Shown piece by piece: positions 16,184-42,219 of a DNA stretch of 55,727 bases. Source of the stretch: Aromatoleum diolicum (GTDB lineage: Bacteria > Pseudomonadota > Gammaproteobacteria > Burkholderiales > Rhodocyclaceae); NCBI RefSeq assembly GCF_012910955.1, contig NZ_WTVQ01000032.1, positions 1-55,727 on the forward strand, read 5' to 3'. Position numbers and translations under genes: made by a program. Under the pieces are notes generated by a model. It made no database searches. It was not told the DNA's origin and saw only the letters and a list, made by a program, of their open reading frames with translations. Each line of letters opens with the position of its first letter. Position 1 is the stretch's first letter.

Positions 16184-16193
16184 GGAACCGACC

Positions 16194-22960: not shown

Positions 22961-23437
22961 TCAGGTTCCATCCTTGGCCAGCAAGGTGGCGGCGATCTCT
23001 GCCGCCCGGGAAGTGTAACGCGCACAGCGACGGTGCAATTGGCGATCGCGGAAAACGGCCTGGCCTTCGGGGGTGCCGATATCGCAACCGAGCAGCTGGT
23101 CGCAATTGCGTGCGCCGAACTCCGCTTCGAACGCGCGGACAAGCTCCCGGGTTGCCGAATAGGCGGCATCCGCGGTTTGTTCCGCACTGCTGCGACCCAG
23201 CGACAGACCGAGGCCCATGATGGCACCGGTGAGGGCCCCGCAAGGCCCGCAGGTGCGCGACATGCCGCCGCAGAAGGCGGTCGCCATCTTCGGGATCAGT
23301 TCCGATTCGAGGCCTTGGGCTTTGGCCAGCGCGGTCAGCACCGCTTCGGCACAATACAGTCCCGACGCCGAAGCTTCCTCCGCCAGACGGCGGACGTCGT
23401 CGGCCGAGAGCGGTGCCATCGATGCGTCGGTGTTCAT
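22961..23437 (-). CDS. C_GCAxxG_C_C family putative redox/metal protein
   Basis: A 158-residue protein with the spaced-cysteine pattern of the C_GCAxxG_C_C family: LYCAEAVLTAL near residue 28, AFCGGMSRTCGPCGALTGAI in the middle, then NCDQLLGCD. Family members are often encoded beside redox enzymes and may bind a metal or cluster; their function is not established. ATG 23437 has GAGGAG seven bases upstream. It lies between the SDR gene and the 88-residue gene in an unbroken minus-strand run, linking the acyl-CoA half of the operon to the radical SAM half. Confidence 0.78.
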   Translation of the reverse strand: MNTDASMAPLSADDVRRLAEEASASGLYCAEAVLTALAKAQGLESELIPKMATAFCGGMSRTCGPCGALTGAIMGLGLSLGRSSAEQTADAAYSATRELVRAFEAEFGARNCDQLLGCDIGTPEGQAVFRDRQLHRRCARYTSRAAEIAATLLAKDGT

Positions 23438-23461
23438 CGCGCGGCTCCTCGGCAAGGTAAA

Positions 23462-24238: not shown

Positions 24239-24316
24239 GGTCCTTTCTTCCTCTATCGATGTCTTTTCGAAGTGCAGGGCGCCCGCAGGCGCGTAGCTCA
24301 TGACAGGGTCCGACTG

Positions 24317-25873: not shown

Positions 25874-25876
25874 GGC

Positions 25877-26986
25877 TTAAATTTCCTTCACCATCTTCGC
25901 GTAGCCGAAGCGCTCCAGCGTGGCCAGCACGTTCTTGTAGCCGAAGGCCTGCGACGGGCTGTGGAAACCGACGGGGGGCGTCGTCATGCGCAGCAGGCAA
26001 CTGGCGACGAAGGCCTGCAGCAGGCCGGTCTGCTGGTAGCCGCTGTGGCTGTAGATCGTGTATTGGACGCGCCCGGTGAGACCGGTGCCGGTGGCGGTGT
26101 CCCAGTTGCGCGCGGTCAGCGGGTTCTCGCGCGGCGGCATGCCGCTCTGCACACCGTCGGCGATCTTGGCCAGCGCCTTGATCTGCTCTTCTTCCGGCAG
26201 GTTCTTAAGCTCGTTGTGGTACAGCTTGTTGATGCCGATGATCTGCTCGGCCAGTTGGCGGTTGCCGAAGGCGCACAGGGCCTTGAGGTTGCGGATGCGC
26301 GGGTGGCTGGTGAACCACAGCGGGGGCGCCAGCCCGGCACCGGGGATGCCGAGCACGGTGCGGGTGGTGAAGGGCGCGGTCATCTCGGCGCTGTAGGCCG
26401 GCGGCCACGCGGTCAGCTGGCCGTTCTCCAGGAAGTATTCCTTCGCGCGCGCCATCTGCACCAGGGTGTGGGCCGAGCCGACCGTCGGCGTGACGGCCGG
26501 AATCGTGACGGCCTCGATGGTGTCGATGTCCTCATGCTCGGCGCAGGCGTGGCAGGCGATGTCCATCACCGCGTTCTGGTAGGCGGTGCAGGGACCGAAA
26601 TAGAGGCCGCGCTTGGCGAACCCGGCGCTGTACTTGTCGCGCATGTCCAGCATGAAGGCCTGTTCGCCGGTCGTGTCGAGATAGTGGCAACCAGCTTCGA
26701 GGGCAGCCTGGACGACGGTTTCGCCGTACAGCAGGAAGGGGCCGACGACGTTGCACACGACCTTGGCGCCCGAAAACAGCTTGGTCAGCGCGGCGACGTC
26801 GTGCTCGACGACCGCCAGTTCATAGTCGGCGGTCTCGATCCCCGGCACGCGCTTCATCGCTTCCTCCAGTCGCTCGCGGTTGCGACCCGCGGCGATGAAG
26901 GGAATCTGGTAGTGGCGCAGGAATTCGCAGGTCAGTTGGCCGGTGTAGCCGCTGGCGCCGTAGACGACGACGGGTTTCTTGCTCAT
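25877..26986 (-). CDS. Saccharopine-dehydrogenase-like NAD(P) oxidoreductase
   Basis: A 369-residue protein with an N-terminal Rossmann motif VVVYGASGYTGQL, followed by VGPFLLYGETVVQAALEAG and HYLDTTGE, as in the saccharopine dehydrogenase/trans-acting enoyl reductase family. Those features indicate NAD(P) binding, but most family members outside lysine metabolism lack a known reaction. The C-terminal half is unlike lysine enzymes. I start it at ATG 26986, directly at the fold. Its position between ligase and SCP-x-type thiolase suggests a reduction of an enoyl- or oxo-intermediate on the CoA pathway. Substrate unknown. Confidence 0.75.
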   Translation of the reverse strand: MSKKPVVVYGASGYTGQLTCEFLRHYQIPFIAAGRNRERLEEAMKRVPGIETADYELAVVEHDVAALTKLFSGAKVVCNVVGPFLLYGETVVQAALEAGCHYLDTTGEQAFMLDMRDKYSAGFAKRGLYFGPCTAYQNAVMDIACHACAEHEDIDTIEAVTIPAVTPTVGSAHTLVQMARAKEYFLENGQLTAWPPAYSAEMTAPFTTRTVLGIPGAGLAPPLWFTSHPRIRNLKALCAFGNRQLAEQIIGINKLYHNELKNLPEEEQIKALAKIADGVQSGMPPRENPLTARNWDTATGTGLTGRVQYTIYSHSGYQQTGLLQAFVASCLLRMTTPPVGFHSPSQAFGYKNVLATLERFGYAKMVKEI

Positions 26987-27017
26987 GGAGGTCTCCAACT
27001 CAGGTGTGAATCCGTTG

Positions 27018-28208
27018 TTATTGCTTCTGGAAGATGTGCACAAAGCCCGCGCTGCCGAGCCCGCCGTTGTGCTGCAGCGCGGTGCGCGCACCTTCCACTT
27101 GGCGGGCGCCGGCTTCGCCGCGCAACTGCCAGACGAGCTCGGTGATCTGCGCGAGGCCGGTGGCGCCGAGCGGGTGTCCCTTGGAGAGCAGGCCGCCGGA
27201 GGGATTGACGACGTAGCGCCCGCCGTAGGTGTTCTGGTCGTCCATCACAAAAGACTGCATGTCTTCGTCCCTGCACAGGCCGAGCGCGGCGTAGGTGATG
27301 ATTTCGTTGCTGGTGAAGCAGTCGTGCAGTTCGACGACGTCGATATCTTCCGGTCCCACACCGGCGCTTTCGTAGGCCAGTTGGGCGGTCTCCCGGCTCA
27401 CGCCGCGGAAGATCACGTCGAGCGGATTGTCGCTGTCGAAGTATTCCTGCCGGTCGCTGCGCCAGCCCTGACCCACGAGACGTATATCGCTGCGGATGCC
27501 GTGCTTTTTGGCGAAGGCCTCGCTGCAGACGATGACCGCCGCGGCGCCGCAGCTGGGCGGGCAGGCGTAGAGCTTGCGCAGGCCGCGGTAGATCTGCGGC
27601 GATTCGAGTACGTCGGCTTCCGTCAACGGATCACGGAAGATGGCAAACGGGCTGGCGGCGGCATGCCGGCGCGCCTTGACCGCCACGCGGGCCAGCGCCC
27701 GGTCGGTCACGCCATAGCGTTCCTTGATGGCATCCACCTGGGCACCGAAAAGCTGGATGGCCGGCGGCAACTTGCGCTCTTCGTCGGTGTAGTGCATCAG
27801 ATTGGCGACCGCACCGTTGTGCCGATGGATCGGGTTGATGCGATCGGGGAAGATGAAATCGAGGGCGCCGGGCACCATCTGCTCGAAGCCGACGGCCAGT
27901 GCGCAATCGACCTGGCCGCCCTTGACGGCCTGCGACGCCAGCGCGAAGGCCGTCGAGCCGCTCGAGCAGTTGTTGTTGACGTTGACGATGGGCACGCCGT
28001 TGATGCCCACGTTGTAGAGCGCCGCCTGTCCGGAGCAGGAATCGCCATAGACGTAGCTGGCATAGGCCTGCTGCACCTGGTCGTAGACGATGCCTGCGTC
28101 CTTGAGCGCCCCGCGCGCCGCTTGAGCGCCCATGACATCGTAGGATTCGCTCTTCCCGGGCTTCTTGAACGGAATCATGCCGACGCCGGCAATCACGACT
28201 TGGGTCAT
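27018..28208 (-). CDS. SCP-x/lipid-transfer-type thiolase
   Basis: A 396-residue thiolase-fold protein of the SCP-x (non-specific lipid transfer) type. It has the cysteine motif NNNCSSGSTAF near residue 80, ELHDCFTSNE in place of the usual NEAFA, and the histidine in SKGHPLGATGLAQ. These thiolases often act on branched, steroid-like or ring-derived 3-oxoacyl-CoAs. Family members near acyl-CoA dehydrogenases may cleave bulky side chains or perform retro-aldol steps. It sits between the acyl-CoA dehydrogenase and the saccharopine-dehydrogenase-like gene with short spacers, in the same operon. Confidence 0.85.
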   Translation of the reverse strand: MTQVVIAGVGMIPFKKPGKSESYDVMGAQAARGALKDAGIVYDQVQQAYASYVYGDSCSGQAALYNVGINGVPIVNVNNNCSSGSTAFALASQAVKGGQVDCALAVGFEQMVPGALDFIFPDRINPIHRHNGAVANLMHYTDEERKLPPAIQLFGAQVDAIKERYGVTDRALARVAVKARRHAAASPFAIFRDPLTEADVLESPQIYRGLRKLYACPPSCGAAAVIVCSEAFAKKHGIRSDIRLVGQGWRSDRQEYFDSDNPLDVIFRGVSRETAQLAYESAGVGPEDIDVVELHDCFTSNEIITYAALGLCRDEDMQSFVMDDQNTYGGRYVVNPSGGLLSKGHPLGATGLAQITELVWQLRGEAGARQVEGARTALQHNGGLGSAGFVHIFQKQ

Positions 28209-28244
28209 TCCCTGTTTCCTTTTCGAATTGGTTGATCGGCGCGC

Positions 28245-29519
28245 TTACAGTCCGTGCTGCTGCTTGTACCAAGTGCTGAGCCAGCTGCCGCCGACGAGGC
28301 TGAGCAGGTTGTTCTCGCCATCCTCGATCAGCGCCGCGCGGGCATCGCGGAAGATCTTCTCCACCGGGTATTCCTTCGTCAGGCCGTTGCCGCCGAACAT
28401 CTGCAGCGCCTCGCTGGCGACTTCGAAGGCGGCCTGGGTGACGTAGGTCTTGCTGGTGATGGAGCCGAGGACGTGGGGGCCGTTGGGGCCGTAGTTGTAG
28501 TTGACGACGCGGTGGGCCATGGCGCGCGCGCTCTCCACCTTGCGCCACATGTCGAACAGGCGGGCGCGCACGCTTTGATGGTTGATGATCTGCGTGCCGC
28601 CCTGCTTGCGCTCGTGGGCATAGGCCAGGGCGTGCTCGAAGGCGGCCCGTGCCACGCCGGTGAAAGTGAGCGCCATTTCCATGTTGGCGAAGGTGAGGGC
28701 GCCGAAGAACGCGCCGTGCGCGGTGTCCTTGCCCGCGATCACGTATTTCTTCGGGATCACCACGTCGTTGAAGTAGATCTCGCCCTGGGGCAGGGGGCGC
28801 TGGCCGATCTTGTCCAGCGGCTTGCCCTTGGTGACGCCCTTGTCGAAGGGCACCAGCGCGGCGATGTAGTTGAGACCGCCCTGGTCGTTCCACAGGCCGT
28901 CGCCATAGTCGCACTGGCAGAAGACGAAGCCGGTGTCGGCCACCGGGGCGCCGCTGACCCACGCGGAACATTGACCGGTGATCACGACCTCGTCGCCGAC
29001 GACCTTGGCGAACAGGTTGCCGCGACCCTGTTTGGTGCCCGGATGGACCTGGGTGGCCTGGATGTCGCCCAAGTCGCTGCCGCGGTCGGGTTGCGTGCCG
29101 ACCCAGCAACCGATGCCGTTGCCGAAACGGTCGATGAGTTCGGCGTCGCCCGACATGTAGGCGGCGAAGGCCGGGAAGGCCGTGGCGAGCGAGAAGATTG
29201 CGAGACCCGGGTCGCCCCAGCCCAGTTCCTCGAAGATCAGCGGCAGCATGCGCGCCTTCTGCTCCGAGCTCATCGCGCCGACCGCCTGCAGGTCGAGCAG
29301 GCCGATCTCCTTCATCTGCCTGACGTAATCCCACAGCGGGGAACCGGCCGCCACGACCTCGTCCGGTGTCATGTGGTCGAGCTTGCGGCCGATCGGGCGC
29401 ATCACCTCTTCGGCAAAACGGTGTGCGACCTCCTGGATGGCGCGCTCTTCCTCGGAGAGTTGGGCTTCGAGGCCGGCCATGCCGAGCGTGGGGTTCGGGA
29501 TTCTGTCAAATGCAAACAT
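28245..29519 (-). CDS. Acyl-CoA dehydrogenase with an altered catalytic-base motif
   Basis: A 424-residue acyl-CoA dehydrogenase, first gene of the nine-gene minus-strand run. Family landmarks are QLSEEERAIQEVAHRFAEE, GQCSAWVSGAPVADTG, and the C-terminal QMFGGNGLTKEYPVEKIFRDARA. Where most relatives read IYEGT with a catalytic glutamate, this protein reads IEDGEN, so the usual base may be an aspartate or shifted. Such changes are known in alicyclic and unusual dehydrogenases, so a non-fatty-acid substrate is possible. Start is ATG 29519; a GTG three codons earlier (29528) is an alternative, as neither has a strong ribosome site. Confidence 0.85.
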   Translation of the reverse strand: MFAFDRIPNPTLGMAGLEAQLSEEERAIQEVAHRFAEEVMRPIGRKLDHMTPDEVVAAGSPLWDYVRQMKEIGLLDLQAVGAMSSEQKARMLPLIFEELGWGDPGLAIFSLATAFPAFAAYMSGDAELIDRFGNGIGCWVGTQPDRGSDLGDIQATQVHPGTKQGRGNLFAKVVGDEVVITGQCSAWVSGAPVADTGFVFCQCDYGDGLWNDQGGLNYIAALVPFDKGVTKGKPLDKIGQRPLPQGEIYFNDVVIPKKYVIAGKDTAHGAFFGALTFANMEMALTFTGVARAAFEHALAYAHERKQGGTQIINHQSVRARLFDMWRKVESARAMAHRVVNYNYGPNGPHVLGSITSKTYVTQAAFEVASEALQMFGGNGLTKEYPVEKIFRDARAALIEDGENNLLSLVGGSWLSTWYKQQHGL

Positions 29520-29769
29520 ATATATCACCGCGCTGGATTAGAAAATTGGTCCTGCCAATGTCTATGGCGATAAAGGCGAAATCGCGATCAATTGGAATTG
29601 AATTCGGTCTTTGCCTTCCCCAACACATCGAAGCCCTGCTTATTTGCCAATGGAACAATTAACTTGGCTGGGTCCTGAATTGGATTTCGCTCTTTTCCGA
29701 TTCTTAAGTTGCGACCTAAATATCAGGCATCCGATTTGATTGGTCACCCCCCCAGGTGAGGTGGGCTGA
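29520..29769 (-). promoter_or_regulatory. AT-rich leader/promoter region of the minus-strand acyl-CoA operon
   Basis: This 250-base gap is clearly less GC-rich than its surroundings, as expected for a promoter. A sequence at 29578-29591 (GAAAT-CGCG-ATCAA) matches the FNR/Anr consensus TTGAT-N4-ATCAA at seven of ten positions, with one perfect half-site, about 60-70 bases before the first gene. It may mark oxygen control, but the match is imperfect. No clear -35/-10 pair was seen. Confidence 0.4.
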
Positions 29770-30044: not shown

Positions 30045-30290
30045 CTAGGCGGCCAATCGGACGGACTTTTCCTGCAATTGATCTTTGCTTTCGCGATGGT
30101 TCGGGTCAGGAAAAATACAGTCCGAAAGGCAGACTTCCATGCATTGCGACTTCGCGAAATGTCCGACGCACTCCGTGCATTTGGTCGGATCGATCACGAA
30201 AATGTCTTCGCCCGGAGCGATTGCCTCGTTCGGGCACTCCATTTCGCACATGCCGCAATTGATGCAGTCAGAATTGATCAGTAGTGCCAT
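30045..30290 (-). CDS. 2[4Fe-4S] ferredoxin of the benzoyl-CoA-reductase type
   Basis: An 81-residue ferredoxin. The first cluster motif is CINCGMCEMECP (residues 9-20). The second is CTECVGHFAKSQCMEVCLSDC, with an eight-residue insertion between its second and third cysteines. This enlarged loop and a C-terminal tail are typical of the low-potential ferredoxins that serve benzoyl-CoA reductases and KorAB in Thauera-like bacteria. AGGAGGAAG precedes the start. It lies between the minus-strand acyl-CoA operon and the AraC gene, and probably carries electrons from KorAB to the ATP-dependent system at 31758-35952. Confidence 0.92.
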   Translation of the reverse strand: MALLINSDCINCGMCEMECPNEAIAPGEDIFVIDPTKCTECVGHFAKSQCMEVCLSDCIFPDPNHRESKDQLQEKSVRLAA

Positions 30291-30572: not shown

Positions 30573-31598
30573 CTAGATCGCTTCAGGTCTGTCGCTCAGG
30601 TGCGTTTGGCGCCAGATCGTGGCGGTGCAGCCGAAGCGGCTGGAAAACCATCTCGAGAAGGCCGACGGCTCCGAGAATCCCAGCAATTCCGCCAGATCCT
30701 TGAGCGGGCGCTGGGAGTTGCTCAAGTATTTGACGGCCAGATCGCGCCGCGCACCGTCGAGGATTTCGGAGAAGGTTTGTCCACTTCTTTGCAGATGACG
30801 ATGCAGCGTGCGGCGATCGAGCCCGAGGTGCTGGGAGACCACTTCGACCGAGCATCGACCCGTCGGCAGCAGCAGCCACACAAGTTGCCGCACGTTTTCC
30901 GCGGGTGACTGCGCCGGTTCCGTGTTGATGACCTCGAGCAACTTCTGCATGTAGCGCGCCGTTTCCGGATCGTAGGTCGGCAGTGGATCATCGAGAATCG
31001 CCGCGCGGCAGATTATTCCGTCGATATTGCTGTTGAACTGGACCCGCGTATCAAACACACGGTGATGCACGCGCAGGTCGCTCGGCGCGGAATGGCGAAA
31101 ACACACGGCATTCGGATGCCATTCGTTGCCCAGCAAGACGCGCAGTGTTCGGTACAGCACGCCAAGCGATAGTTCGGTTGCCTGGCGAATTGGTTCCGGT
31201 CGATCCGGCATCAACTCTTCGCGGATGATCAGAACACCGTCGGCCTCCTCGAACAGGAACATCGCCGCCTCGGCTTGCAGGTGGCAGTAGTTGCGTATCG
31301 CCTCGAGCGCCTTGCGCATCGTCGGTTGGCTCTTCAGGACGATGCCCAGCGGCCCGAGATTCGAGAGCTGGCGCCCCTCCGCCAGGCGCAGACCAAAATT
31401 CTCCACCCCGGCTGCCGTCGCCGAGTTTTCCAGCAACTGTACATAGGCAGAAAACGGAATCTTCGTGTCGGGGTTCGACAGGCATGCCGGGCTGATATTG
31501 ACCCGGCGCAATTCCTCCAGCGGCGAAATATTCAGCGATTGCGCCAGCTCGACGTAATTGGTCAGGCCCGCACTGCGATGAAGCTTTTTCATGGCCAT
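30573..31598 (-). CDS. AraC-family transcriptional regulator
   Basis: A 341-residue regulator. The C-terminal ~100 residues are the double helix-turn-helix AraC domain (CSVEVVSQHLGLDRRTLHRH, then LKDLAELLGFSEPSAFSRWF). The N-terminal ~190 residues resemble the Arabinose_bd-type sensor domain common in regulators of acid catabolism (FGLRLAEGRQLSNLGPLGIV). It is transcribed divergently from the ATPase/HgdB-like operon with a 160-base shared region, the usual position of a pathway-specific activator. The inducer is likely a CoA ester or the free acid of that pathway, but this is inference. Confidence 0.88.
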   Translation of the reverse strand: MAMKKLHRSAGLTNYVELAQSLNISPLEELRRVNISPACLSNPDTKIPFSAYVQLLENSATAAGVENFGLRLAEGRQLSNLGPLGIVLKSQPTMRKALEAIRNYCHLQAEAAMFLFEEADGVLIIREELMPDRPEPIRQATELSLGVLYRTLRVLLGNEWHPNAVCFRHSAPSDLRVHHRVFDTRVQFNSNIDGIICRAAILDDPLPTYDPETARYMQKLLEVINTEPAQSPAENVRQLVWLLLPTGRCSVEVVSQHLGLDRRTLHRHLQRSGQTFSEILDGARRDLAVKYLSNSQRPLKDLAELLGFSEPSAFSRWFSSRFGCTATIWRQTHLSDRPEAI

Positions 31599-31757: not shown

Positions 31758-32657
31758 ATGAGCGAGAGCAGCTTCAGGATCGCCGACGTAATTGACCCGA
31801 GGAAAATACCCGAGGTGCAGCCGGTGACCACCGTCGGCATCGACATCGGTTCCCGGCAATCCAAGGCGGTGATGATTAGCGGCGACTATATTCATACCGC
31901 CATTACCGCCAGCGGCGTCCATCCCGCGGAGACGGCGAAGCGCCTGGTCGACAAGCTGCTCAAGGCGTCGGGGCGGGAGCGCAGCGACATCGCCATGATC
32001 ACCGGCACCGGCTATGGCCGGATCGCCCTGCAGTTCGAGGGCATCCCCGCCGAAGTGATCACCGAGATCACCTGTCACGCGATGGGGGCCCACTATCTCA
32101 ACGCCGACACCCGCACCATCATCGACATCGGCGGCCAGGACTGCAAGGCCATCAAGCTCGACACCAGCAACGGCCGCGTCACCGAGTTCGCCATGAACGA
32201 CAAGTGCGCCGCCGGTTCCGGCCGCTTCCTGGAGAAGACCGCCGAGATGCTTGGCTATCAGCTGCACGAGCTCGGCACTCGCGCCATGGCCTCCACCAAG
32301 GAGATCCAGATGAGCAGCCAGTGTGTCGTCTTTGCCGAGTCGGAAATCGTTTCCCTCAAGGCCAAGAACGAGAAGGGCGAGGACATCGCGGCCGGCGTCC
32401 ATTTCGCCATTGCCCGCCGGGTCTGCAACCTGGTCAACCGGATCGGCCTCGACCCGGAGCTAGCCTTCTCCGGCGGGGTCGCCAACAACATCGGCGTCAA
32501 GCATGCGCTTGAAAGCCTCTTGAATCGCCCCTTCGTCACGCCGCGGCTCAATGCCGTGTTCGCCGGATGCCTGGGGGCGGCCGTGATCGCCCAGCAAAAG
32601 ATTTGCGGCACGGCCCAGTTCGATACAACCCCGCAGGAAATGGAGGTGGAGGCATGA
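31758..32657 (+). CDS. BcrD/HgdC-type ATPase (electron activator)
   Basis: A 299-residue ASKHA-fold ATPase of the BadF/BadG/BcrA/BcrD/HgdC family. Visible are TVGIDIGSRQSKAVMI (phosphate 1), IIDIGGQDCKAI, and the two cysteines, in NDKCAAGSGRFLE and SSQCVVFAESE, that bind the [4Fe-4S] cluster between two activator subunits. An N-terminal extension with ADVIDP precedes the ATPase fold and is shared with the next gene, suggesting tandem duplication. GGAGGAG lies six bases before ATG 31758. It should couple ATP hydrolysis to electron delivery onto the HgdB-like subunits. Confidence 0.9.
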   Translation: MSESSFRIADVIDPRKIPEVQPVTTVGIDIGSRQSKAVMISGDYIHTAITASGVHPAETAKRLVDKLLKASGRERSDIAMITGTGYGRIALQFEGIPAEVITEITCHAMGAHYLNADTRTIIDIGGQDCKAIKLDTSNGRVTEFAMNDKCAAGSGRFLEKTAEMLGYQLHELGTRAMASTKEIQMSSQCVVFAESEIVSLKAKNEKGEDIAAGVHFAIARRVCNLVNRIGLDPELAFSGGVANNIGVKHALESLLNRPFVTPRLNAVFAGCLGAAVIAQQKICGTAQFDTTPQEMEVEA

Positions 32658-34714
32658 GCACGCTTCACGAAAACGTTTCGGCAGAGCGCAGCCTGGCCTT
32701 TGCCGACATCATCGACCCGAAGCTGGTTCATGAGCTGACCGGGGTCACCTCGATGGGCATCGACATCGGGTCGCGCAACTCGAAGGCGGTGCTGCTGCAC
32801 GAGGGCCGCCTCTACACCGCCCTGCTGCCCACCGGCCTCGACATGCAGGATACGGCCAAGGAACTGCTGGAAGAGCTGTACGAAAACGCCAATATCACGA
32901 TGGAAGACATCGATTTCATCGTCGGCACGGGCTACGGCCGGATCGCGCTGAAATTCGACACGGTGCCCAGCGAGATCCTCACCGAGATCTCCTGCCACGC
33001 CATGGGCGCCCACTACCTGAACGCCGGCACCCGCACCATCATCGACATCGGCGGCCAGGACGCCAAGGCCATCCAGGTGGATCCGGAAACCGGCAAGGTG
33101 GTCAAGTTCCGCATGAACGACAAGTGCGCGGCGGGCACCGGGCGCTTCCTCGAAAAGGCAGCGACCCTGCTGGACCTCACGATGTTCGACGTGGGGCCCG
33201 AGTCCATGAAGTACACCAAGGACCTGGAAGTCAGCGCCCAGTGCGTCGTCTTCGCCGAATCCGAGGTGATTTCCCACCGCGCCAAGGGCGAGACGTCGGC
33301 CGACATTTCCGCCGGGGTGCACCTGGCCTCCGCCAAGCGCGTCGTCGGCCTGTTGCGCGCCATTCCGCTGGAGTCCGACATTGTCTTCACCGGCGGGGTG
33401 TCCAACAACGTCGGCATGAAGCACGCCCTGGAGCGTCTGCTGGGCCAGAAGATCGTGCAGCCCAAGCTCGACATGGTCTTCGCCGGCTGCCTGGGCGCCG
33501 CGGTGTATGCCCAGCGCCTAGCCATCGAGAAACGCGGGGCAAAAGTGGCCATGGTGGCCGAGAAGTTCGACGTGTCGGACCTGACCCGCCGCATCGAGGA
33601 TGCCGAGGTCTCCCTGATCGAGCGCAAGGACGTCAAGAAGGTCGGCTACCTTTGCACCTACACGCCGCCCGAGCTCTTGACCGCCGCCGGCGTCGCCTAC
33701 GGGCGCATCGACAAGTGCGGCACGCCCTCGGTGGTGGCCGAAGGCGAAGTGATCGTCAAGAGCGTGTTCTGTGACATGGCCAAGAGCGTCATCGGCCACT
33801 TCCGCACCAAGGACCCCTTCCACGACGCCCTCGACCAGGTGGTCACCTTCTACACCTGCGACACGATGCGCGCGACTTCCAACGCGATCAACCATTACTT
33901 CAAGCCGTCCTACGGCTACGTGGTGCCGCGGACGGGTGACAAGCCCAGCGCACGGGACTTTTTCCGGGGCGAAATGATCGCCTTCAAGAACGATCTGGAG
34001 AAGCTGACCGGCAAGCCGGTCGAAGAAGCCAAGATCCGCGAGGCGATCCAGCTGCACCGGAAACTGCGCCAGACCATCCACAAGATCTCGGATCTGCGCA
34101 AGCGCAACCGTCCGCCGCTTTCAGGCAGCGATTTCCTGGAAATCACCCGCGCCTACCGCAGTCTTCCGGCCCAAGAGCAGCTGCCGATCCTCGAGGATCT
34201 GCACAACCGCCTGGCGGACGTTCCCGACGACGACACGCCCCGTCTGCGCATCATGATCTGCGGCGGCATCATGGCCGACGGCGACCGGCGGCTGATGGAC
34301 CTGCTGGAAAAGGACATCGGCGTCAATGTGGTGGTCGAGGATCACTGCACCGGCCTCTCCCCGTTCTACTACGACATCGAGGAAACCGACGATCCCTACC
34401 GCGACCTCGCCAACGCCTACCTGGATCAGGCCCCCTGCGCCCGCCAGTCGCCGCTCACCAAGCGCATCGACTTCGCCGGCAACCTGGCCCAGGAATACAA
34501 GGTGGACGCGGTCATTTACTACACCCTCAAGTTCTGCCCGTCCTTCTCCCAGACCAAGGGCCTCTTCATGCGCCGCTTCCACGAGATCGGACTACCTGCT
34601 CTGGAGCTGGACACCGACTATTCGCAAGGCGACACCGGCCAGATCAAGACCCGCCTCGAGGCCTTCGTCGAAGTTCTCAAAGAAGCTAAAGGAGAGCAAG
34701 CATGCAAGCAGTAA
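32654..34714 (+). CDS. Fusion of BcrA/HgdC-type ATPase with HgdB/BcrB-like reductase/dehydratase subunit
   Basis: A 686-residue fusion. Residues ~1-300 repeat the ATPase fold of the previous gene (ADIIDP extension, MGIDIGSRNSKAVLL, NDKCAAGTGRFLE, SAQCVVFAESE). From ~residue 325 it becomes an HgdB/BcrB/BcrC-like domain beginning KKVGYLCTYTPPELLTAAG (Cys334), with further cysteines in VFCDMAK, YTCDTMR, APCARQS and KFCPSFSQTKG, enough for a [4Fe-4S] or double-cubane cluster. In known benzoyl-CoA reductases and 2-hydroxyacyl-CoA dehydratases these are separate proteins. Its start overlaps the preceding stop (ATGA), and its end overlaps the next gene by 13 bases. The frame is uninterrupted across the junction. 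Confidence 0.88.
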   Translation: MSTLHENVSAERSLAFADIIDPKLVHELTGVTSMGIDIGSRNSKAVLLHEGRLYTALLPTGLDMQDTAKELLEELYENANITMEDIDFIVGTGYGRIALKFDTVPSEILTEISCHAMGAHYLNAGTRTIIDIGGQDAKAIQVDPETGKVVKFRMNDKCAAGTGRFLEKAATLLDLTMFDVGPESMKYTKDLEVSAQCVVFAESEVISHRAKGETSADISAGVHLASAKRVVGLLRAIPLESDIVFTGGVSNNVGMKHALERLLGQKIVQPKLDMVFAGCLGAAVYAQRLAIEKRGAKVAMVAEKFDVSDLTRRIEDAEVSLIERKDVKKVGYLCTYTPPELLTAAGVAYGRIDKCGTPSVVAEGEVIVKSVFCDMAKSVIGHFRTKDPFHDALDQVVTFYTCDTMRATSNAINHYFKPSYGYVVPRTGDKPSARDFFRGEMIAFKNDLEKLTGKPVEEAKIREAIQLHRKLRQTIHKISDLRKRNRPPLSGSDFLEITRAYRSLPAQEQLPILEDLHNRLADVPDDDTPRLRIMICGGIMADGDRRLMDLLEKDIGVNVVVEDHCTGLSPFYYDIEETDDPYRDLANAYLDQAPCARQSPLTKRIDFAGNLAQEYKVDAVIYYTLKFCPSFSQTKGLFMRRFHEIGLPALELDTDYSQGDTGQIKTRLEAFVEVLKEAKGEQACKQ

Positions 34715-35952
34715 TGGAAAAGGCTTCCGCGATGGAAAAAGCCCCCAGCGTCCCCAACGAACCGCGCAACCAGCTTGAGTACATCGAGCAGAGCCGGCAG
34801 GCCCACGGCTATTCCAAGGGCATCCAGAAGCTCTACGATCTGGCGCTCTCCTATATGCCGGACGCCGAAAAGGGCAACCAGGAAGGCAAGCCGGCCGTAT
34901 GGTCCACCGGCCTGATGGAAGCCCCCCTGCTGTACGCCTGCGACACGATTCCGGTGGCGGTGTACGACCTCGGGCGCCTCTCCGCGGCGGAGGGTGCGGC
35001 GGAAAGGGCGGAGGAACTCTTCGACATGCCCAAGGAAACTTGTTCCATGGTTTCCGCACTGCTTGGCGAGTGGTACCTGCGCAAGGACAACTCGATGAAG
35101 AAGGTGGTGGCCCTGTCCACGGTCTGCGAGCCCCTCAACATGGGCTACGAGATGATCAAGGAGTTCGGCTTCGACATACACCGCGTCGAGCAGGTGATCC
35201 GGCCGGTCCATGGCGGGGACGAGCGCCTGGAGCAGATGGTCAAGTTCCTCGCCAGCGAACTGGAAGACGTGGCGGTCTTCCTGACCGGCAAGCCGGTGGA
35301 TGAGGAGAAGATGCGCTTCGAGATCAAGCGTCTCAACCGCCTGATGGCCAAATTCCGCGAGATCATCCAGCTGCGTGTCAGCAACCCGCTCTACATCAAG
35401 AGCCTGCCCGTGCTCTTCCTGCTGATGGGGTCGGCCCACTACTTCGGCAAGCCGGACGAGTACGAGGCCATGCTCGATCAGCTGATCGAGGAACTCAAGA
35501 CCGCCCCCTACGTCGAGTCTCCCCTCGGAAAAATCGTGCCGCTCACCTGGGTCGGCGCCCGGGGTCTGGAATTCGGGGTCTTCAAGGCGGTGGACGACAT
35601 GGGCGGCGCGCTGCTCAGCTGGTTCACCCCGAACCCCTACGACCGCGTGTGGAACGAGGAGATTCCGCCCCTCGAGTCCATGGCCCGCTTCATCCTCGAC
35701 TACTTCGTCACCGGATCGCCGGTGAACCAGATCAAGTACATCGAGAAGATGATCGAGGAGACCGGTTCGAAGGGGATGTTGTTCTACACCTACATCGGCT
35801 GCCCGTATGGCGGCATGCACGTCGAACTGTTCCGCAACCATTTCCACCAGAAGGGTGTGCCGAGCTCCTTCCTGGAAGGCAGCTGGCAGGTGGGGGCGCC
35901 GTCCGGGCAGTTGCTGACCCGCGTCCGGGCCTTCGTCGAGATGCTGTCGTGA
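34702..35952 (+). CDS. Second HgdB/BcrC-like subunit
   Basis: A 416-residue protein of the 2-hydroxyglutaryl-CoA dehydratase D-component family. Cysteines typical of the cluster site lie in LLYACDTIPV (~residue 80), KETCSMVS, STVCEPLN and YIGCPYGGMH. FLLMGSAHYFGKPDEYE is in the central part. With the HgdB-like half of the preceding fusion it should form the catalytic heterodimer that receives electrons from the ATPase dimer. The closest described systems are class I benzoyl-CoA reductases and 2-hydroxyacyl-CoA dehydratases. Which reaction applies (ring reduction, dehydration or another two-electron reduction) cannot be decided from sequence. Confidence 0.87.
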   Translation: MQAVMEKASAMEKAPSVPNEPRNQLEYIEQSRQAHGYSKGIQKLYDLALSYMPDAEKGNQEGKPAVWSTGLMEAPLLYACDTIPVAVYDLGRLSAAEGAAERAEELFDMPKETCSMVSALLGEWYLRKDNSMKKVVALSTVCEPLNMGYEMIKEFGFDIHRVEQVIRPVHGGDERLEQMVKFLASELEDVAVFLTGKPVDEEKMRFEIKRLNRLMAKFREIIQLRVSNPLYIKSLPVLFLLMGSAHYFGKPDEYEAMLDQLIEELKTAPYVESPLGKIVPLTWVGARGLEFGVFKAVDDMGGALLSWFTPNPYDRVWNEEIPPLESMARFILDYFVTGSPVNQIKYIEKMIEETGSKGMLFYTYIGCPYGGMHVELFRNHFHQKGVPSSFLEGSWQVGAPSGQLLTRVRAFVEMLS

Positions 35953-36024: not shown

Positions 36025-36066
36025 GTGCATGAACAGTTCCATCAAATGTTCCAGAGGACGACGGTC

Positions 36067-38208
36067 ATGGAGACAAAGAAAGACATTTATTGCTTCGTTT
36101 GCCCCAGTCACTGTGCGCTAAAAGCCACTTTCGACGAAAACGGCAAGATGATAAAGGTCGTTGCCGACGCGGGTAGCGGACAGCATGTCGACATCTGCGA
36201 CTGCCGGAAGGGGCCTATCACCATTCCCGAAGCGCATAGCCACGGCAAGCGCCTGCAGTTCCCCATGAAGCGGGCGGGTGAGCGCGGCGAAAACAGGTGG
36301 ATCCGGATCACCTGGGACGAGGCGCTCGACACCATCGCCGAGAAGATGAAGCACTACAAGGCGACCTACGGCCCCGAGAGCATCGCCATGGTCCTGGGTG
36401 AACCCAAGAGCATGGACTACGCGTTCGCGCAGCGCTTCGCGACCTTCCTGGAAACCCCCAACGTCATCACGCCGGGCAACTATTGCGGCGTGCAGACCGG
36501 CCACGCCGATCAGTTCTCCATCGGCACGATGCACGTCCTCGGGGACACCGGGTATGACCCGAAATGCATCATCATCTGGGGCTCCAACCCGCAGAACACC
36601 GGCAGCAACTTCCGTTGCTTCACCCAGAAGGATGTGGCGCGGGCGATGAAGAACGGCGCCAAGCTGATCATGATGGAGCCGGGCAAGAACCGCTATTGCG
36701 AGAAGGCCGATCACTGGCTGCGTCTCAAGCCCGGTTCCGATGGATCGCTGGCCATGGGCATGGCCAAGGTGATCATCGACGAAGATCTGTACGACAAGGA
36801 TTACGTCGCCAACTACACGGTCGGCTTCGAGGAACTGAAGAAAGAGGTCGCGAACTTCACGTTGCAGGACGTGGCCGATGAGACCTGGATCGACATCGAG
36901 ACGATCCGCACGGTCGCGCGTACCTACGCCACCGCCAAGCCCGGCCTGATCATGTGGGGCAACGCGCTGGAGAACTCGATCGCGGCGCTGCAGATCTGCC
37001 GCGCCGTCAGCATGCTGCGCGGCCTGACGGGCAACGTCGGGGTCGAAGGCGGCGAGCTGATCAACACGCCGGCGAAATTCGGCCGCCCGGGCCGCTTCTA
37101 TTTCGACCGCAGTCATCCCCGTCCGACCCACAAGTCGATCGGCAAGGAATTCCCCATCGCGATGGGCGCGGCCTACGTGCCGACGCAGTCGCTGGTGCAG
37201 ACGATCCTTTCCGAGGATCCCTACCCGGTGAAGATGGCGATGTGCCACGTCACCAATCCGCTGCTGACCTATCCGGATTCGGTGGCCACCTACGAAGCCT
37301 TCATGAAGGTGCCGTTCCTCGTCGTCGCCGAGATCTTCCCGACCTCGACCACTGCGATCGCCGACATCGTGCTGCCGGCGGCCTTGCCGCTGGAGCACAA
37401 CTCGCTCGCCTACTGGCCGGCCTGGCTGGGCCACATCCGTGCCCAGCCCAAAGCCGTCGAGCCGCCCGGAGAAGCCTGGCCGGACGCCAAGATGATCAAC
37501 GAACTGGCCAAACGCATGGGCATGCGCGAACACTTCTTCGAAGACTGGGAAGAGTGCCTCGACATCATGATGGCCGACTCGGGCATGACCTTCAAAGAGT
37601 TCTGCGCGCCCGACAAACGCGTCATCCATCCGACCAAGCATTACCTCAAGGACAACCCGGACGGCTACTTCAAGACGCCGTCGCGCAAGTTCGAGTTCTA
37701 TTCGCAGCAGATGACCCAACTGGGCATCAGCCCCTTGCCCACGTTCAAGGAAGTCTCGGCGCAGCGCTTCAGCAAGGAGCAGTGGGAGCGCTATCCGCTG
37801 CACCTGACCAACGGCAAGGAAGGGGCGTATTTCTCCTCCGGCTACCGGCACATCGAGGGCATGAAGAAGTACAGCGCCGAGGCGATCTGCGAGTTGAATC
37901 CGCGGACCGCGTCCCGGTACGGGCTCAAGGAAGGCGAGATGATCTGGATCGAATCGCGCAAGGGGCGCATCCAGCAGCGCCTGAAGATCTCCGAGCACGT
38001 GCACCCTAACGTCATCGTTGCTGCTTTCGGGTGGTGGGATACCGAGGCGGAAAACAACGAATACGACTGGCGCAAATACAACATCAACATCCTCACCGAA
38101 GGCGATGGGGCCAACTGTCCGGCGACCGGTTCGGTGCAGTTGCGCGGCATTCCCGTTCGCGTCTATTCCGAAGAACAGTCGTGGGGAAATCCACCCGCTG
38201 ACGCGTAG
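36067..38208 (+). CDS. Mo/W bis-MGD oxidoreductase-fold enzyme, distantly acetylene-hydratase-like
   Basis: A 713-residue cytoplasmic protein of the DMSO-reductase superfamily, with no Tat signal and no adjacent electron-transfer subunit. ATG 36067 has AGAGGA nine bases upstream. The N-terminal [4Fe-4S] cysteines are at 9, 12, 16 and 46 (CFVCPSHC, then CDCRKG), the positions I recall for Pelobacter acetylene hydratase. The likely metal ligand is Cys140 in PGNYCGVQTG (acetylene hydratase uses Cys141). The catalytic Asp13 of that enzyme is Pro here, so true acetylene hydration is unlikely. Cofactor regions follow at IIIWGSNPQNTGSN, LIMMEPGKNRYCEKADHWL and the C-terminal TNGKEGAYFSSGYRH domain. 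Its place after the HgdB-like genes suggests a hydration, hydroxylation or redox step on the same CoA pathway. Confidence 0.88.
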   Translation: METKKDIYCFVCPSHCALKATFDENGKMIKVVADAGSGQHVDICDCRKGPITIPEAHSHGKRLQFPMKRAGERGENRWIRITWDEALDTIAEKMKHYKATYGPESIAMVLGEPKSMDYAFAQRFATFLETPNVITPGNYCGVQTGHADQFSIGTMHVLGDTGYDPKCIIIWGSNPQNTGSNFRCFTQKDVARAMKNGAKLIMMEPGKNRYCEKADHWLRLKPGSDGSLAMGMAKVIIDEDLYDKDYVANYTVGFEELKKEVANFTLQDVADETWIDIETIRTVARTYATAKPGLIMWGNALENSIAALQICRAVSMLRGLTGNVGVEGGELINTPAKFGRPGRFYFDRSHPRPTHKSIGKEFPIAMGAAYVPTQSLVQTILSEDPYPVKMAMCHVTNPLLTYPDSVATYEAFMKVPFLVVAEIFPTSTTAIADIVLPAALPLEHNSLAYWPAWLGHIRAQPKAVEPPGEAWPDAKMINELAKRMGMREHFFEDWEECLDIMMADSGMTFKEFCAPDKRVIHPTKHYLKDNPDGYFKTPSRKFEFYSQQMTQLGISPLPTFKEVSAQRFSKEQWERYPLHLTNGKEGAYFSSGYRHIEGMKKYSAEAICELNPRTASRYGLKEGEMIWIESRKGRIQQRLKISEHVHPNVIVAAFGWWDTEAENNEYDWRKYNINILTEGDGANCPATGSVQLRGIPVRVYSEEQSWGNPPADA

Positions 38209-38292: not shown

Positions 38293-40401
38293 ATGGATTC
38301 ACCCGTTGTTACCTTGACCAGGAACGGCGCCATCGCCGTCGTCACCATCGACCGCCCGCCGGTCAACGCGCTCTCTGCCGATGTGCGCCGCGGTTTGCTG
38401 AACGCCTTCGAGGAACTCGCCGGCGACCCGAGCGTTGCGGGCGCGGTTCTCGCCTGTGCCGGACGCACTTTCGTCGCGGGGGCTGAGATCTCCGAGTTCG
38501 GCACCGACGCCTTTTCCGAGGCGGATCCGAACGACGTCCATGCTGCCATTGAAAACCTGAATATTCCGGTCGTTTGTGCACTGCACGGCACGACGCTCGG
38601 CGGTGGCATGGAACTCGCTCTCGCCTGTCATTACCGCGTCGCCACGCCGACCGCCAAACTGGGTTTGCCGGAAGTCACGCTCGGTCTGTTGCCGGGCGGG
38701 GGCGGGACTCAGCGTTTGCCCCGTCTGATCGGCGCTGCCGATGCGTTGGACATGATGCTCTCCGGCGCTCCGGTGTCGGCCCAGACCGCACTCGACAAGG
38801 ATCTCATCGACGTGATCGTCGAAGGCAACCTGCTCGAAGCCGCGCAGCGTTTCGTGGGGGAACTGATCGCCACGCGCGCACCGCTTCGTCTGGCGAGTGA
38901 GGGGGAGGTCGATCGGGCCAGTGTCTCGCCGACACTGTTTGCCGATACGCGAGCCGCGCTGGCGAAGAAGGCCCGAGGCGCCATCGCGCCGGCACGGATC
39001 GTGGACTGCGTCGAGGCTGCGATAACCATGCCTTTCGCCGACGGACTCAAGTACGAGCGCGACCTCTTCGTGGAGTGCATGAACTCGCCGCAATCGGCCG
39101 CACTGCGTCATGCGTTCTTCGCCGAGCGCGATGCTAGCAAGATTCCCGGCATCGCCAAGGATGTGCCGCTGCGGCCGATCAGGAAGGTCGGGATCGTCGG
39201 TGCCGGGACGATGGGCGGCGGCATCGCCATGAATTTCCTCAATGCCGGTATTCCCGTCATCCTGCTGGAAGTGAAGCCCGATGCGCTGGAGCGCGGCCTG
39301 GGCATCGTTCGCAAGAACTACGAGGCGACAGCGAACAAGGGTCGAATGACGCTCGAACAGGTCGAGCAGCGCATGGCGCTGTGCAGCGGTTCGCTCGACT
39401 ATGTGGACCTGCACGACTGCGATCTCGTCATCGAGGCCGTGTTCGAGAGCATGGACGTCAAGAAGGCCGTGATGGCCCGCCTGGGCGAGGTCTGCAAGCC
39501 CGGCGCGATCATCGCCACCAACACCTCGACGCTCGACGTTGACGTGCTGGCCGCAGCCAGTGGCCGCGCGGCGGATGTGGTCGGCATGCACTTCTTCAGC
39601 CCTGCCAATGTGATGCGCCTGCTCGAGGTGGTGCGCGGTCGCGACACGGATCCCGCGGTGCTGGCGACGGTGATGACCTTGGCCCGGAAGATCAAGAAGG
39701 TGGCCGTCGTTTCAGGCGTCTGTTTCGGCTTCATCGGCAACCGCATGCTCGAACCTTACCTGCGCGAATGCGAGGCTCTGCTGCTGGAAGGTGCAACGCC
39801 GACGCAGATCGATCGCGCCATCGAGGCCTTCGGGATGGCGATGGGGCCGTGCCGCATGATCGACATGGCGGGCGTCGATGTGGCCGCCAAAGTCGTGCTC
39901 GAACGCCGCAAGGATGGGGCGCTTCCGGCCGATCCGGGCTATCGGGTTGCATGTCAGATGTTGTTCGAACTCGGTCGCCATGGCCAGAAGACCGGTGCCG
40001 GATATTACCGGTACGAGGGGCGCACGCCCGTGCATGACGCCGAGGTCGATCGGATCATGGAGGGGCTCGCCAAGCAATACGGCATCGCCCGCCGCAACGA
40101 CGTCAGCGACGAGGAAATCGTGGAGCGTTGTCTGTACCCGCTGATCAACGAAGGGGCAAAGATCCTCGAGGAAGGGATCGCCTACCGTGCGGGCGACATC
40201 GACATCGTGTGGCTCAACGGTTACGGCTTCCCGGCGCTGAAGGGCGGGCCCATGCATGCCGCCAATGTCATCGGCCTCGAGCAGATCGTGGCATGCCTCG
40301 AACACTATGCCGGCCAGCGCGGCAACGCCTACGGCTACTGGACCGTGGCCGGGCTCGTGGGGGATCTGGCGGTCGCCGAGCGAGAGTTCGGTGACGCTTG
40401 A
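38293..40401 (+). CDS. Enoyl-CoA hydratase/3-hydroxyacyl-CoA dehydrogenase fusion (FadJ-like)
   Basis: A 702-residue bifunctional enzyme with the crotonase domain first. Residues 1-190 include RPPVNALSADVRR, FVAGAEISEF and GTTLGGGMELALACHYRVA with the acidic LPEVTLGLLPGGGGTQRLP. From ~residue 297 the dehydrogenase domain begins (VGIVGAGTMGGGIAMNFLNAG) and continues to the C-terminus, with GMHFFSPANVMRLLEVV and the C-terminal 6-phosphogluconate-like repeats. AAAGAGGG precedes the start. The domain order is the reverse of the fusion at 2015-4393, so they are not recent duplicates. In this operon it probably hydrates and oxidises the product of the ATP-dependent system. Confidence 0.92.
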   Translation: MDSPVVTLTRNGAIAVVTIDRPPVNALSADVRRGLLNAFEELAGDPSVAGAVLACAGRTFVAGAEISEFGTDAFSEADPNDVHAAIENLNIPVVCALHGTTLGGGMELALACHYRVATPTAKLGLPEVTLGLLPGGGGTQRLPRLIGAADALDMMLSGAPVSAQTALDKDLIDVIVEGNLLEAAQRFVGELIATRAPLRLASEGEVDRASVSPTLFADTRAALAKKARGAIAPARIVDCVEAAITMPFADGLKYERDLFVECMNSPQSAALRHAFFAERDASKIPGIAKDVPLRPIRKVGIVGAGTMGGGIAMNFLNAGIPVILLEVKPDALERGLGIVRKNYEATANKGRMTLEQVEQRMALCSGSLDYVDLHDCDLVIEAVFESMDVKKAVMARLGEVCKPGAIIATNTSTLDVDVLAAASGRAADVVGMHFFSPANVMRLLEVVRGRDTDPAVLATVMTLARKIKKVAVVSGVCFGFIGNRMLEPYLRECEALLLEGATPTQIDRAIEAFGMAMGPCRMIDMAGVDVAAKVVLERRKDGALPADPGYRVACQMLFELGRHGQKTGAGYYRYEGRTPVHDAEVDRIMEGLAKQYGIARRNDVSDEEIVERCLYPLINEGAKILEEGIAYRAGDIDIVWLNGYGFPALKGGPMHAANVIGLEQIVACLEHYAGQRGNAYGYWTVAGLVGDLAVAEREFGDA

Positions 40402-41034: not shown

Positions 41035-42219
41035 ATGAAAGAAGCTGTCATCGTTTCCACTGCGCGGACCCCGATCGGCCGGGCCTTCCGCGGTGCCTTC
41101 AACAACACCAAGTCGCCGACGCTGATGGGCCACGCCCTGAATCATGCGGTGCAGCGTGCCGGCATCGACGCGGCCGAGATCGAAGACGTGATCGTCGGCA
41201 CGGTCCTGGCGGCCGGTACTGCCGGCATGAACATCGCGCGCAATGCGGCGCTTGCCGCAGGAATTCCGGTCACGGCCGGGGCACAGACCGTCGATCGTCA
41301 GTGCTCTTCCGGTTTGATGGCGATCGGCATGGCCGCCAAGCAGATCATCGTCGACGGCATGGAAGTCGTGGCGGCGGGGGGGCAGGACAATATCTCGGCG
41401 GTCCAGGCGGGCTATTTCGAATGGGCGGCCAAGGACAAGGATCCGAACGTCGAAAAGTTCGCGCCCCATGCCTACATGCCGATGCTTCTGACCGCCGAGA
41501 ACGTCGCGAAGAAATTCGGCATCTCCCGCGAGGTGCAGGACCTGTACGCCCTGTCATCGCAGCAGCGCACGGCCGCCGCCCAGGAGGCGGGCCGTTTCGA
41601 CCAGGAAATCGTGCCGCTGACGACCATGATGGCAGTGGTGAACAAGGAGACGAAGGAAGTCTCGTACAAGGAAGCGACGCTCGCCAGGGACGAGGGCAAT
41701 CGCGCCGACACCACCCTGGAAGGGCTTGCCAGCCTGAAACCCGTGGTCGAGGGCGGGTGCATCACGGGCGGCAATGCGAGCCAGCTGTCTGACGGCGCCT
41801 CGGCCTGCATCGTCATGGAGCGCAAGCTCGCCGAACGCCGCGGCCTGACCCCGCTGGGCATCTACCGGGGTATCGCGGTGGCCGGCAACGCCCCGGAGGA
41901 AATGGGCATCGGTCCGATCTACGCCATCCCCAAACTGCTCAAGCAGCACGGTCTGAAGGTGGGCGATATCGGCCTGTGGGAGCTCAACGAGGCCTTCGCG
42001 TGCCAGGCCCTGTATTGCCGGGACCATCTCGACATCGATCCGGCGAAATACAACGTCAACGGCGGCGGGATCTCCGTTGGCCACCCCTATGGCATGACCG
42101 GCTCACGTCTGGTCGGCCATGCGCTGATAGAAGGCAAGCGACGCGGTGTGAATTACGTTGTTGTCACGATGTGCGTCGGCGGCGGCATGGGGGCTGCGGG
42201 GCTGTTCGAGGTTTGCTGA
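41035..42219 (+). CDS. Acetyl-CoA acyltransferase (thiolase)
   Basis: A 394-residue thiolase. The nucleophilic cysteine is in [11 protein letters not shown] near residue 88, the NEAFA box is [11 protein letters not shown], the histidine lies in [16 protein letters not shown] (a variation on the usual GHPLGATG), and the second cysteine is in [10 protein letters not shown]. It closes the plus-strand pathway started at 31758 by releasing acetyl-CoA from a 3-oxoacyl-CoA. The GHPYGMTG variant is seen in a subgroup of bacterial thiolases; its meaning for chain or ring substrates is not known to me. Confidence 0.91.

Follow-up and report, generated by a model that had tools for sequence, protein, structure and literature searches.

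A putative ATP-dependent CoA-ester reductase with an ATPase fused to an HgdB-like subunit in an Aromatoleum-like denitrifying bacterium

What kind of enzyme is encoded by a free ATPase, an ATPase fused in frame to an HgdB-like domain and a second HgdB-like protein? The question is raised by three overlapping genes at 31758-35952 of the window, the whole 55,727-nucleotide stretch of DNA analysed here, which is contig C72 of the 5.15 Mb genome (146 contigs) of a denitrifying, Aromatoleum-like bacterium. This arrangement had been described in an earlier note on the same DNA and was borne out by the open reading frames (ORFs) and Pfam matches. With a probability of roughly 0.6, the three products (P1, P2 and P3) would form a four-module ATP-dependent coenzyme A (CoA)-ester reductase, built from three polypeptides with a tethered activator and belonging to the radical enzyme family of class I benzoyl-CoA reductases (BCR I) and 2-hydroxyacyl-CoA dehydratases (HAD). 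Judged from sequence, P1-P3 constitute a new, separate lineage inside this known superfamily.

P1 (31758-32657, plus strand, 299 aa) is a free ATPase subunit matching Pfam BcrAD_BadFG (E 1.4e-58). P2 (32654-34714, plus strand) is a 686-aa in-frame fusion, identified by ORF, Pfam, NCBIfam and alignment, of an ATPase (BcrAD_BadFG, E 1.1e-52, residues 35-286; 32756-33511) and an N-type HGD-D domain (E 1.1e-84, residues 334-675; 33653-34678), and P3 (34702-35952, plus strand) is a 416-aa HGD-D protein (E 9.3e-36). The NCBIfam model CoA_E_activ passes its cut-off for P1 and P2, and the combination of BcrAD_BadFG ATPases with HGD-D subunits, all above cut-off, places P1-P3 in the BCR I/HAD superfamily. 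The start of P2 was set at the ATG at 32654, in agreement with the RefSeq annotation of the orthologue in Azoarcus sp. KH32C; the program-made ORF list has 32567. The overlap is 4 bp (ATGA) between P1 and P2 and 13 bp between P2 and P3, and a GGAG-like site precedes each of the three starts. The ATPases of P1 and P2 are 54% identical and are thus not the same protein, as had been supposed. Within P2, only 47 residues separate the first cluster cysteine from the point where the Pfam ATPase match stops, which leaves scant space for an extra linker.

The fusion recurs beyond the window. Wherever a stretch extends into P2 (ten cases: the window, L001-L004 and L055-L059), ATPase and HGD-D domains share a single open frame. 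L059 and L005 belong to one contig, L056 is from the KH32C plasmid and some of the other stretches may come from the same or near strains; counted by genome, fused P2 is present in at least seven distinct genomes including its own, that is, in at least six other betaproteobacterial genomes, with plasmid pAZKH of Azoarcus sp. KH32C among them. Ratios of nonsynonymous to synonymous substitution (dN/dS) of 0.088-0.228 across P1, P2 and P3, measured against four orthologues, show that the genes are under purifying selection. Sequencing error or an assembly artefact can therefore be dismissed as the origin of the fusion.

A P3 scan of genome contigs from 84,980 species, able to detect close but not distant relatives, found five loci, every one betaproteobacterial (78-86% identity); in one of them (L003) the P1 copy is split between frames. 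The closest copies of the locus in named records are from Aromatoleum and Azoarcus. P3 was found in 6 of 297 genomes of the same family, its own included, and a P3 profile matched a single genome, again its own, among 369 of the class. At the order level, 19 of 399 genomes contained P2 matches at E 1e-40 or better, with whole-length coverage in its own genome only. At the phylum level, 8 of 398 genomes (own counted) had an HGD-D match at 1e-20, and none of the surrounding open frames examined in the other seven joined an ATPase to HGD-D. Among plasmid records, one of the four with a match, KH32C pAZKH, carried most of P3. RefSeq names the KH32C orthologues activase (P1), 2-hydroxyacyl-CoA dehydratase (P2) and 2-hydroxyacyl-CoA dehydratase family protein (P3). 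No published description of a fused reductase was found among the literature matches listed, in a search that left subscription journals mostly outside; the word 'fused' in the accessible part of PMC13416013 concerns other things.

The cluster-type cysteines are all present, as the first reading had stated. C150 and C189 of P1, candidate ligands of a bridging [4Fe-4S] cluster, and C158 and C197 of P2 are presumably of the bridging-cluster type known from HgdC, with whose cysteines the P2 pair aligns. HGD-D domains were compared in a 61-row alignment containing ten P2 and ten P3 rows. Excluded before counts and trees were L079/L092 (a two-domain chain with odd cysteines), a Rhodococcus O-type row (split match, too short) and matches shorter than 300 aa (partial BcrB rows). 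Part of the reference rows were labelled via NCBIfam, and the L085 pair, which scores under the BCR cut-offs, was called 3-methylbenzoyl-CoA reductase (MBR)-type because it groups with MbdN. According to the accessible text of the 2025 BzdNO structure paper (PMC11971306), to which all references to that paper here are limited, the [8Fe-9S] double cubane of BzdN is held by cysteines 36/73/100/263/293/327, and the active-site [4Fe-4S] cluster of BzdO by cysteines 95/128/380, with Glu65 and His131 beside a bound water. By alignment, C334, C373, C402, C565, C595 and C628 of the P2 HgdB half occupy the six double-cubane positions. All ten P2 rows have Cys at five of these six columns; the fifth position, C595, is one column off BzdN C293, as it is in most rows of double-cubane cluster proteins (DCCPs). 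This six-cysteine pattern occurs in BzdN and DCCP/YjiM rows and not in HadC, MbdN or BcrC rows; the first and fourth cysteines are missing from HadC-, MbdN- and BcrC-type rows and from the N-type row on contig C75 of the same genome.

P3 carries the three BzdO-type cysteines (C114, C142 and C367) in 10 of 10 rows, and they are also invariant in a separate six-row alignment (6/6); C80 is a further cysteine. P3 is likely to be the catalytic subunit, and the HgdB half of P2 likely an electron-storing subunit of the N-type. The distinct architecture proposed in the earlier note stands insofar as there are two non-identical ATPases, one of which is tethered to a cluster-bearing subunit; the tether probably does not join the catalytic subunit, since the tethered HgdB half matches electron-storing BzdN. 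In a low-identity alignment, the Glu65 column (BzdO numbering) holds Tyr in all ten P3 rows (Tyr88 in P3) and the His131 column holds Leu (Leu145). Glu65 is present in 13 of 15 O-type rows and replaced by Val in L029 and L030, both atypical. Only Glu65 is informative, because His131 is confined to two BZD-type rows and missing from BCR and MBR rows.

ATPase phylogenies were built from 39 and 40 rows, leaving out the ATPase rows of L034-L042 and most orthologues, with act_Acetoanaerobium omitted from one of the two. The HGD-D tree comprised 46 rows and left out the L029/L030 O-type rows and 12 near-identical orthologues; an earlier tree kept L029/L030 and left out four near-identical orthologues, and a second tree additionally excluded the P2 rows and seven long rows. 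Reference sequences were few and mainly from Pseudomonadota, and the tree programme flagged adjoining long branches in the HGD-D and ATPase trees, including BzdQ beside the P1/P2 group. In both ATPase trees, P1 is the sister of the P2 ATPase (100/99), away from BzdP/BzdQ, BcrA/BcrD and YjiL. Constraining the P2 ATPase to group with YjiL (p 0.0004) or BzdQ (p 0.0029), or P1 to group with BzdQ (p 0.003), was rejected; for BzdP, BcrA and BcrD the separation is read from the best trees. Because of this sister placement and these rejections, the pair is attributed to a duplication of its own, not to that of BzdP/Q or BcrA/D, within the references used. Gene conversion could in principle also produce such sisterhood.

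The HGD-D domains are placed less firmly. A branch with 100/99 support sets the clade of all 13 O-type rows, BzdO, BcrB and HadB among them, apart from P3. The tree without P2 and the seven long rows again excluded P3 from this clade (100/99), the position of P3 itself not being firm. P3 has a very long branch (about 3 changes per column) and adjoins the O-type clade. The approximately unbiased (AU) test rejected P3 with BzdO (p 0.017); P3 with the O-type clade, a grouping that the trees already show as a split (82/62 and 85/72), was not rejected, nor was P3 with DCCP or with the N-type (p about 0.29 each) or with the P2 HgdB half (p 0.065). The P2 HgdB half branches off deeply by itself, at an unsettled point between DCCP and the N-type group, and its grouping with BzdN (p 0.11) or DCCP (p 0.15) was not rejected. 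The mono-cluster state of P3 need not have arisen separately, given its place next to the O-type clade and the several unrejected groupings. In the best trees, every domain of P1-P3 lies outside the clades of characterised BCR, HAD and double-cubane proteins; the placement that the earlier note named as refuting was not observed.

A close match in composition is the BZD-type class I reductase (BzdNOPQ, PDB 8s02), which has the same modules: two non-identical ATPases, a six-cysteine N-type subunit and a three-cysteine active-site-type subunit. Another explanation is that P1-P3 are simply an isoform of true class I reductase acting on benzoyl-CoA (or methylbenzoyl-CoA), with rearranged genes; the four modules and the electron donors match class I BCR, and the P2 HgdB half may still be grouped with BzdN. 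This explanation is very improbable. No BCR equivalog model passes its cut-off for P1, P2 or P3: P2 scores 202.5 bits with bzdQ (cut-off 380.2) and 101 with bzdN (453.8), P1 scores 174.1 with bzdQ (380.2), and no bzdO or BCR model is among the matches listed for P3. Unlike BzdNOPQ, P2 fuses one ATPase to the N-type module, and the P1/P2 ATPase pair stems from a separate duplication, groupings of either ATPase with BzdQ and of P3 with BzdO being rejected; P3 lacks Glu65 and His131 (the latter also missing in BCR and MBR rows) and stands outside the BzdO/BcrB/HadB clade; and the window has none of the ring-opening genes, which accompany the bzd cluster on contig C56. The 3-methylbenzoyl-CoA reductase (MbdONQP, PDB 9gai) and BcrCBAD likewise combine a heteromeric ATPase with two HGD-D subunits, but each is encoded by four unfused genes, two of the six double-cubane cysteines are missing from MbdN and BcrC rows, and the rows of these enzymes fall in clades apart from P1-P3 (MbdO itself is absent from the trees).

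A second explanation would make the system HAD-like: P1 and P2 would inject one recycled electron and P3 would eliminate water from a 2-hydroxyacyl-CoA. The known activators of these dehydratases (HgdC-type) are unfused, of one kind and homodimeric, whereas two different ATPases are encoded here. The dehydratases (HgdABC, HadBCI; PDB 3o3m, 1hux) belong to the same superfamily and share its fold families, with an activator, both catalytic subunits and a three-cysteine cluster site; P3 has the WST segment of HadB as well as the three cysteines, RefSeq names the KH32C orthologues of P2 and P3 in this way, and the nearby beta-oxidation genes would carry an enoyl-CoA onward. However, HadC lacks two double-cubane cysteines present in P2, HadB keeps the Glu that is missing from P3, P3 stands outside the HadB-containing clade (100/99), and the HadC model (cut-off 700) gives only 73.9 bits for P2 and 30.1 bits for P3. 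Ferredoxin and 2-oxoacid oxidoreductase genes in the window further suggest a continuous electron demand. A dehydratase is thus unlikely; of the two activities first proposed, a reductase is favoured because of the double-cubane cysteines, the two different ATPases and the donor genes.

A third explanation starts from P2, which resembles the activator and the double-cubane protein of DCCP systems (E. coli YjiL and YjiM; PDB 7yyl, 6eno) in a single chain and aligns to YjiL+YjiM with about 34% identity over 89%. The double-cubane family is the best-scoring model for its HgdB half (219 bits), DCCPs reduce acetylene, hydrazine and azide (PMC11971306), and an acetylene-hydratase-like enzyme adjoins the genes in the window and three other loci. 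P1-P3 might on these grounds reduce a small or non-CoA substrate, with P3 serving as structural partner instead of CoA-ester site. We regard this as quite unlikely: the best tree places the P2 HgdB half outside the DCCP clade, even though that grouping is not rejected, the neighbours are CoA ligases and beta-oxidation enzymes, and the acetylene-hydratase-like enzyme was not found in several relatives. DCCP systems have activator and DCCP on separate genes in the records examined, and DCCP is a homodimer (PMC11971306); the P1-P3 locus combines both in one gene and adds a second ATPase and the three-cysteine partner.

For the CoA-ester reductase, candidate electron donors are encoded nearby. A YfhL/AlvinFdx-type 2[4Fe-4S] ferredoxin (30045-30290, minus strand; NF033683, 117.7 bits, cut-off 86) lies one gene from P1, past an AraC-type regulator, and is one of four YfhL-type ferredoxin genes above cut-off in the genome. 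It stands beside the reductase in seven of the eight mapped stretches that reach this flank (L001, L003, L004, G526, G674, G579 and G505). The alpha and beta subunits of a 2-oxoacid:ferredoxin oxidoreductase (14210-17216, plus strand; TIGR03710, 652 bits), a candidate source of reduced ferredoxin, represent one of three such enzymes above the TIGR03710 cut-off in the genome; copies at 90-93% identity occur in the stretches of G526, G674 and G579. The neighbourhood thereby resembles the chain of Thauera aromatica, where, as the accessible part of PMC2984482 describes, electrons pass from 2-oxoglutarate:ferredoxin oxidoreductase through a ferredoxin of the same family to benzoyl-CoA reductase. 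CoA ligase and beta-oxidation genes, which surround P1-P3, were counted in favour of a CoA ester as substrate.

By homology, the reaction may be envisaged as follows. Ferredoxin reduced by the 2-oxoacid:ferredoxin oxidoreductase would load a [4Fe-4S] cluster common to P1 and the ATPase half of P2. ATP hydrolysis would lower the potential of this cluster and drive electrons into a putative [8Fe-9S] double cubane of the same P2 chain, where they would be stored before passing to the three-cysteine [4Fe-4S] cluster of P3, the probable site of CoA-thioester reduction. The covalent tether would hold the activator at its target, which may suit an enzyme that needs fresh ATP-energised electrons at each turnover. 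The substrate would be an aromatic or conjugated alicyclic/enoyl CoA thioester, probably not benzoyl-CoA. A further proposal, more tentative than the reductase itself, is that the lineage, starting from a double-cubane ancestor, duplicated its ATPase into a heteromeric pair of its own, joined one copy to the storage subunit and gained the mono-cluster P3, whose donors, unlike Glu65/His131, may serve a class of CoA thioesters beyond those of the known class I, II and III enzymes.

Several observations weigh against the reductase. In the absence of Glu65, BzdO-like Birch-type chemistry is not simply transferable to P3. A double cubane is dispensable for a reductase, since BCR- and MBR-type rows do without two of the six cysteines. 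The DCCP model NF040772 (cut-off 350 bits) scores 219.4 for P2 and 48 for P3, both under its cut-off. Structure predictions from six-row alignments were unusable (mean predicted local distance difference test score, pLDDT, 37.1 for P3 and 40.4 for P2), so that the residue equivalences rest on the low-identity alignment. The ferredoxin gene was not seen in the L005/G570 stretch, and the oxidoreductase was seen in only three of eight mapped stretches, several of them short, with none in those of G505, G570 and L001-L005.

The AraC regulator and the three-gene core are constant, and the surrounding catabolic genes vary. The regulator (Arabinose_bd + HTH_18; 30573-31598, minus strand), divergent from P1, was found in eight of eight mapped stretches reaching that position. 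A catabolic module (23462-29528, minus strand) encodes an acyl-CoA dehydrogenase, an SCP-x-type thiolase, a DUF5938 protein, an AMP-dependent CoA ligase and a short-chain dehydrogenase/reductase (SDR); the literature searched yielded no mention of DUF5938. Beyond P3 lie an enzyme with a molybdenum or tungsten bis-molybdopterin guanine dinucleotide cofactor (Mo/W-bis-MGD; 36025-38208, plus strand), a FadJ-like enoyl-CoA hydratase/3-hydroxyacyl-CoA dehydrogenase fusion (38293-40401, plus strand) and an acetyl-CoA C-acyltransferase (41035-42219, plus strand), the latter two by Pfam and NCBIfam, followed by a MalT-like LuxR regulator (42379-45042, plus strand; also near the core in L001, L004, G526, G674 and G579, and in G505 at 44% identity) and a second AMP-dependent CoA ligase (45051-46745, minus strand). 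The acyl-CoA dehydrogenase, Mo/W enzyme, FadJ-like protein (in L005 the alignment covers 410 of 702 residues) and thiolase are common to the window, L004 and L005; genes for the SCP-x thiolase, the DUF5938 protein and the ligase are also present in L004, and the L005 contig ends short of them. In KH32C (G579) and three other genomes (G526, G674 and G505), paralogues (34-61% identity) of the acyl-CoA dehydrogenase, DUF5938, ligase, thiolase and SDR genes stand alongside the reductase; in KH32C they are grouped with an APH-type phosphotransferase, a histidine phosphatase and a second acyl-CoA dehydrogenase. Nearby in KH32C are DUF1302/DUF1329/YCF48/MMPL cassettes, which are associated with the uptake of hydrophobic compounds.

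These neighbouring genes do not fix the substrate of P1-P3. The Mo/W enzyme, whose nearest solved relative is acetylene hydratase 2e7z (287 bits), is an optional part of the cluster: it adjoins the reductase in the window, L002, L004 and L005, persists as a remnant in G526 and was not found in the stretches of L001, G674, G579 and G505. It has Pro where 2e7z has, following the second cysteine of the first cluster motif, an Asp that we take to be catalytic. Because of this replacement and its absence from several relatives, an acetylene hydratase function was not used to name the substrate. Benzoyl-CoA is an unlikely substrate on genomic grounds, because the bzd cluster with its ring-opening genes is on contig C56, a second BZD-type set of four reductase genes is on C60 and the window contains no ring-opening genes: tblastn with the Oah-type, dehydrogenase and hydratase proteins from C56 found only 25-33% crotonase-type similarity inside 38293-40401. 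These findings, with the missing Glu65 of P3, uphold the original caution that benzoyl-CoA should not be assumed by default, as well as the remark that ring-opening genes are absent nearby. A cyclic monoterpene route was not adopted; in its accessible part, PMC4109377 relates KH32C proteins to Castellaniella monoterpene enzymes, but these are of other kinds (hydratases, dehydrogenases, a hydrolase and CtmG). 3-Hydroxybenzoate (hbd) was also considered, and the literature, including the accessible part of PMC9765128, gave nothing usable.

Some further genes and fragments were observed around the cluster and its relatives. A small protein at 9542-9985 of the window is 44% identical over 68 residues to an ORF by the bzd cluster (L021:7551-7877) and has relatives in the stretches of G526, G674, G579, G505 and G570; it is possibly a common accessory protein. 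Near the cluster also lie genes for a C_GCAxxG_C_C redox protein (22961-23455; also in L005) and a radical S-adenosylmethionine (SAM) protein with an HMPTM-type zinc ribbon (21209-22630; also in L003). The stretch G526 243500-303499 holds two short P2-like DNA pieces (joined-stretch positions 14692-15162 and 28598-29011; 294 bp and 182 bp long, matching the window's core at 99% and 92% identity respectively, compared with 85% for the intact G526 copy), which together with the remnant of the Mo/W enzyme gene are signs of cluster exchange and decay. A different fusion within the superfamily is the 853-aa open frame L092:3117-5675 (G1007:C1, HGD-D matches 119326-121617), with two tandem HGD-D domains, the first of which lacks most cluster cysteines. 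Related HGD-D pairs with one activase occur at L069:5923-9428 (Rhodococcus ruber pmega_1) and at L023:10188-13792 (contig C75 of the same genome), near genes for a CoA-transferase, an SDR and an acyl-CoA dehydrogenase, which are annotated as such in L069 and recognised through similarity in L023. Rhodococcus ruber is an actinobacterium commonly regarded as aerobic.

BCR and HAD enzymes have been proposed to derive from homodimeric double-cubane proteins that duplicated and lost a sub-cluster (PMC11971306). P1-P3, as a separate lineage whose ATPases duplicated independently and in which a double-cubane-type half is paired with a three-cysteine half, would be a natural test of this proposal. The tether sets the ratio of one ATPase to its target, which may be useful for structural work on the electron-transfer complex. 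If active, P1-P3 would add ATP-dependent CoA-ester reduction to the catabolism of denitrifiers and to biocatalytic Birch-type chemistry.

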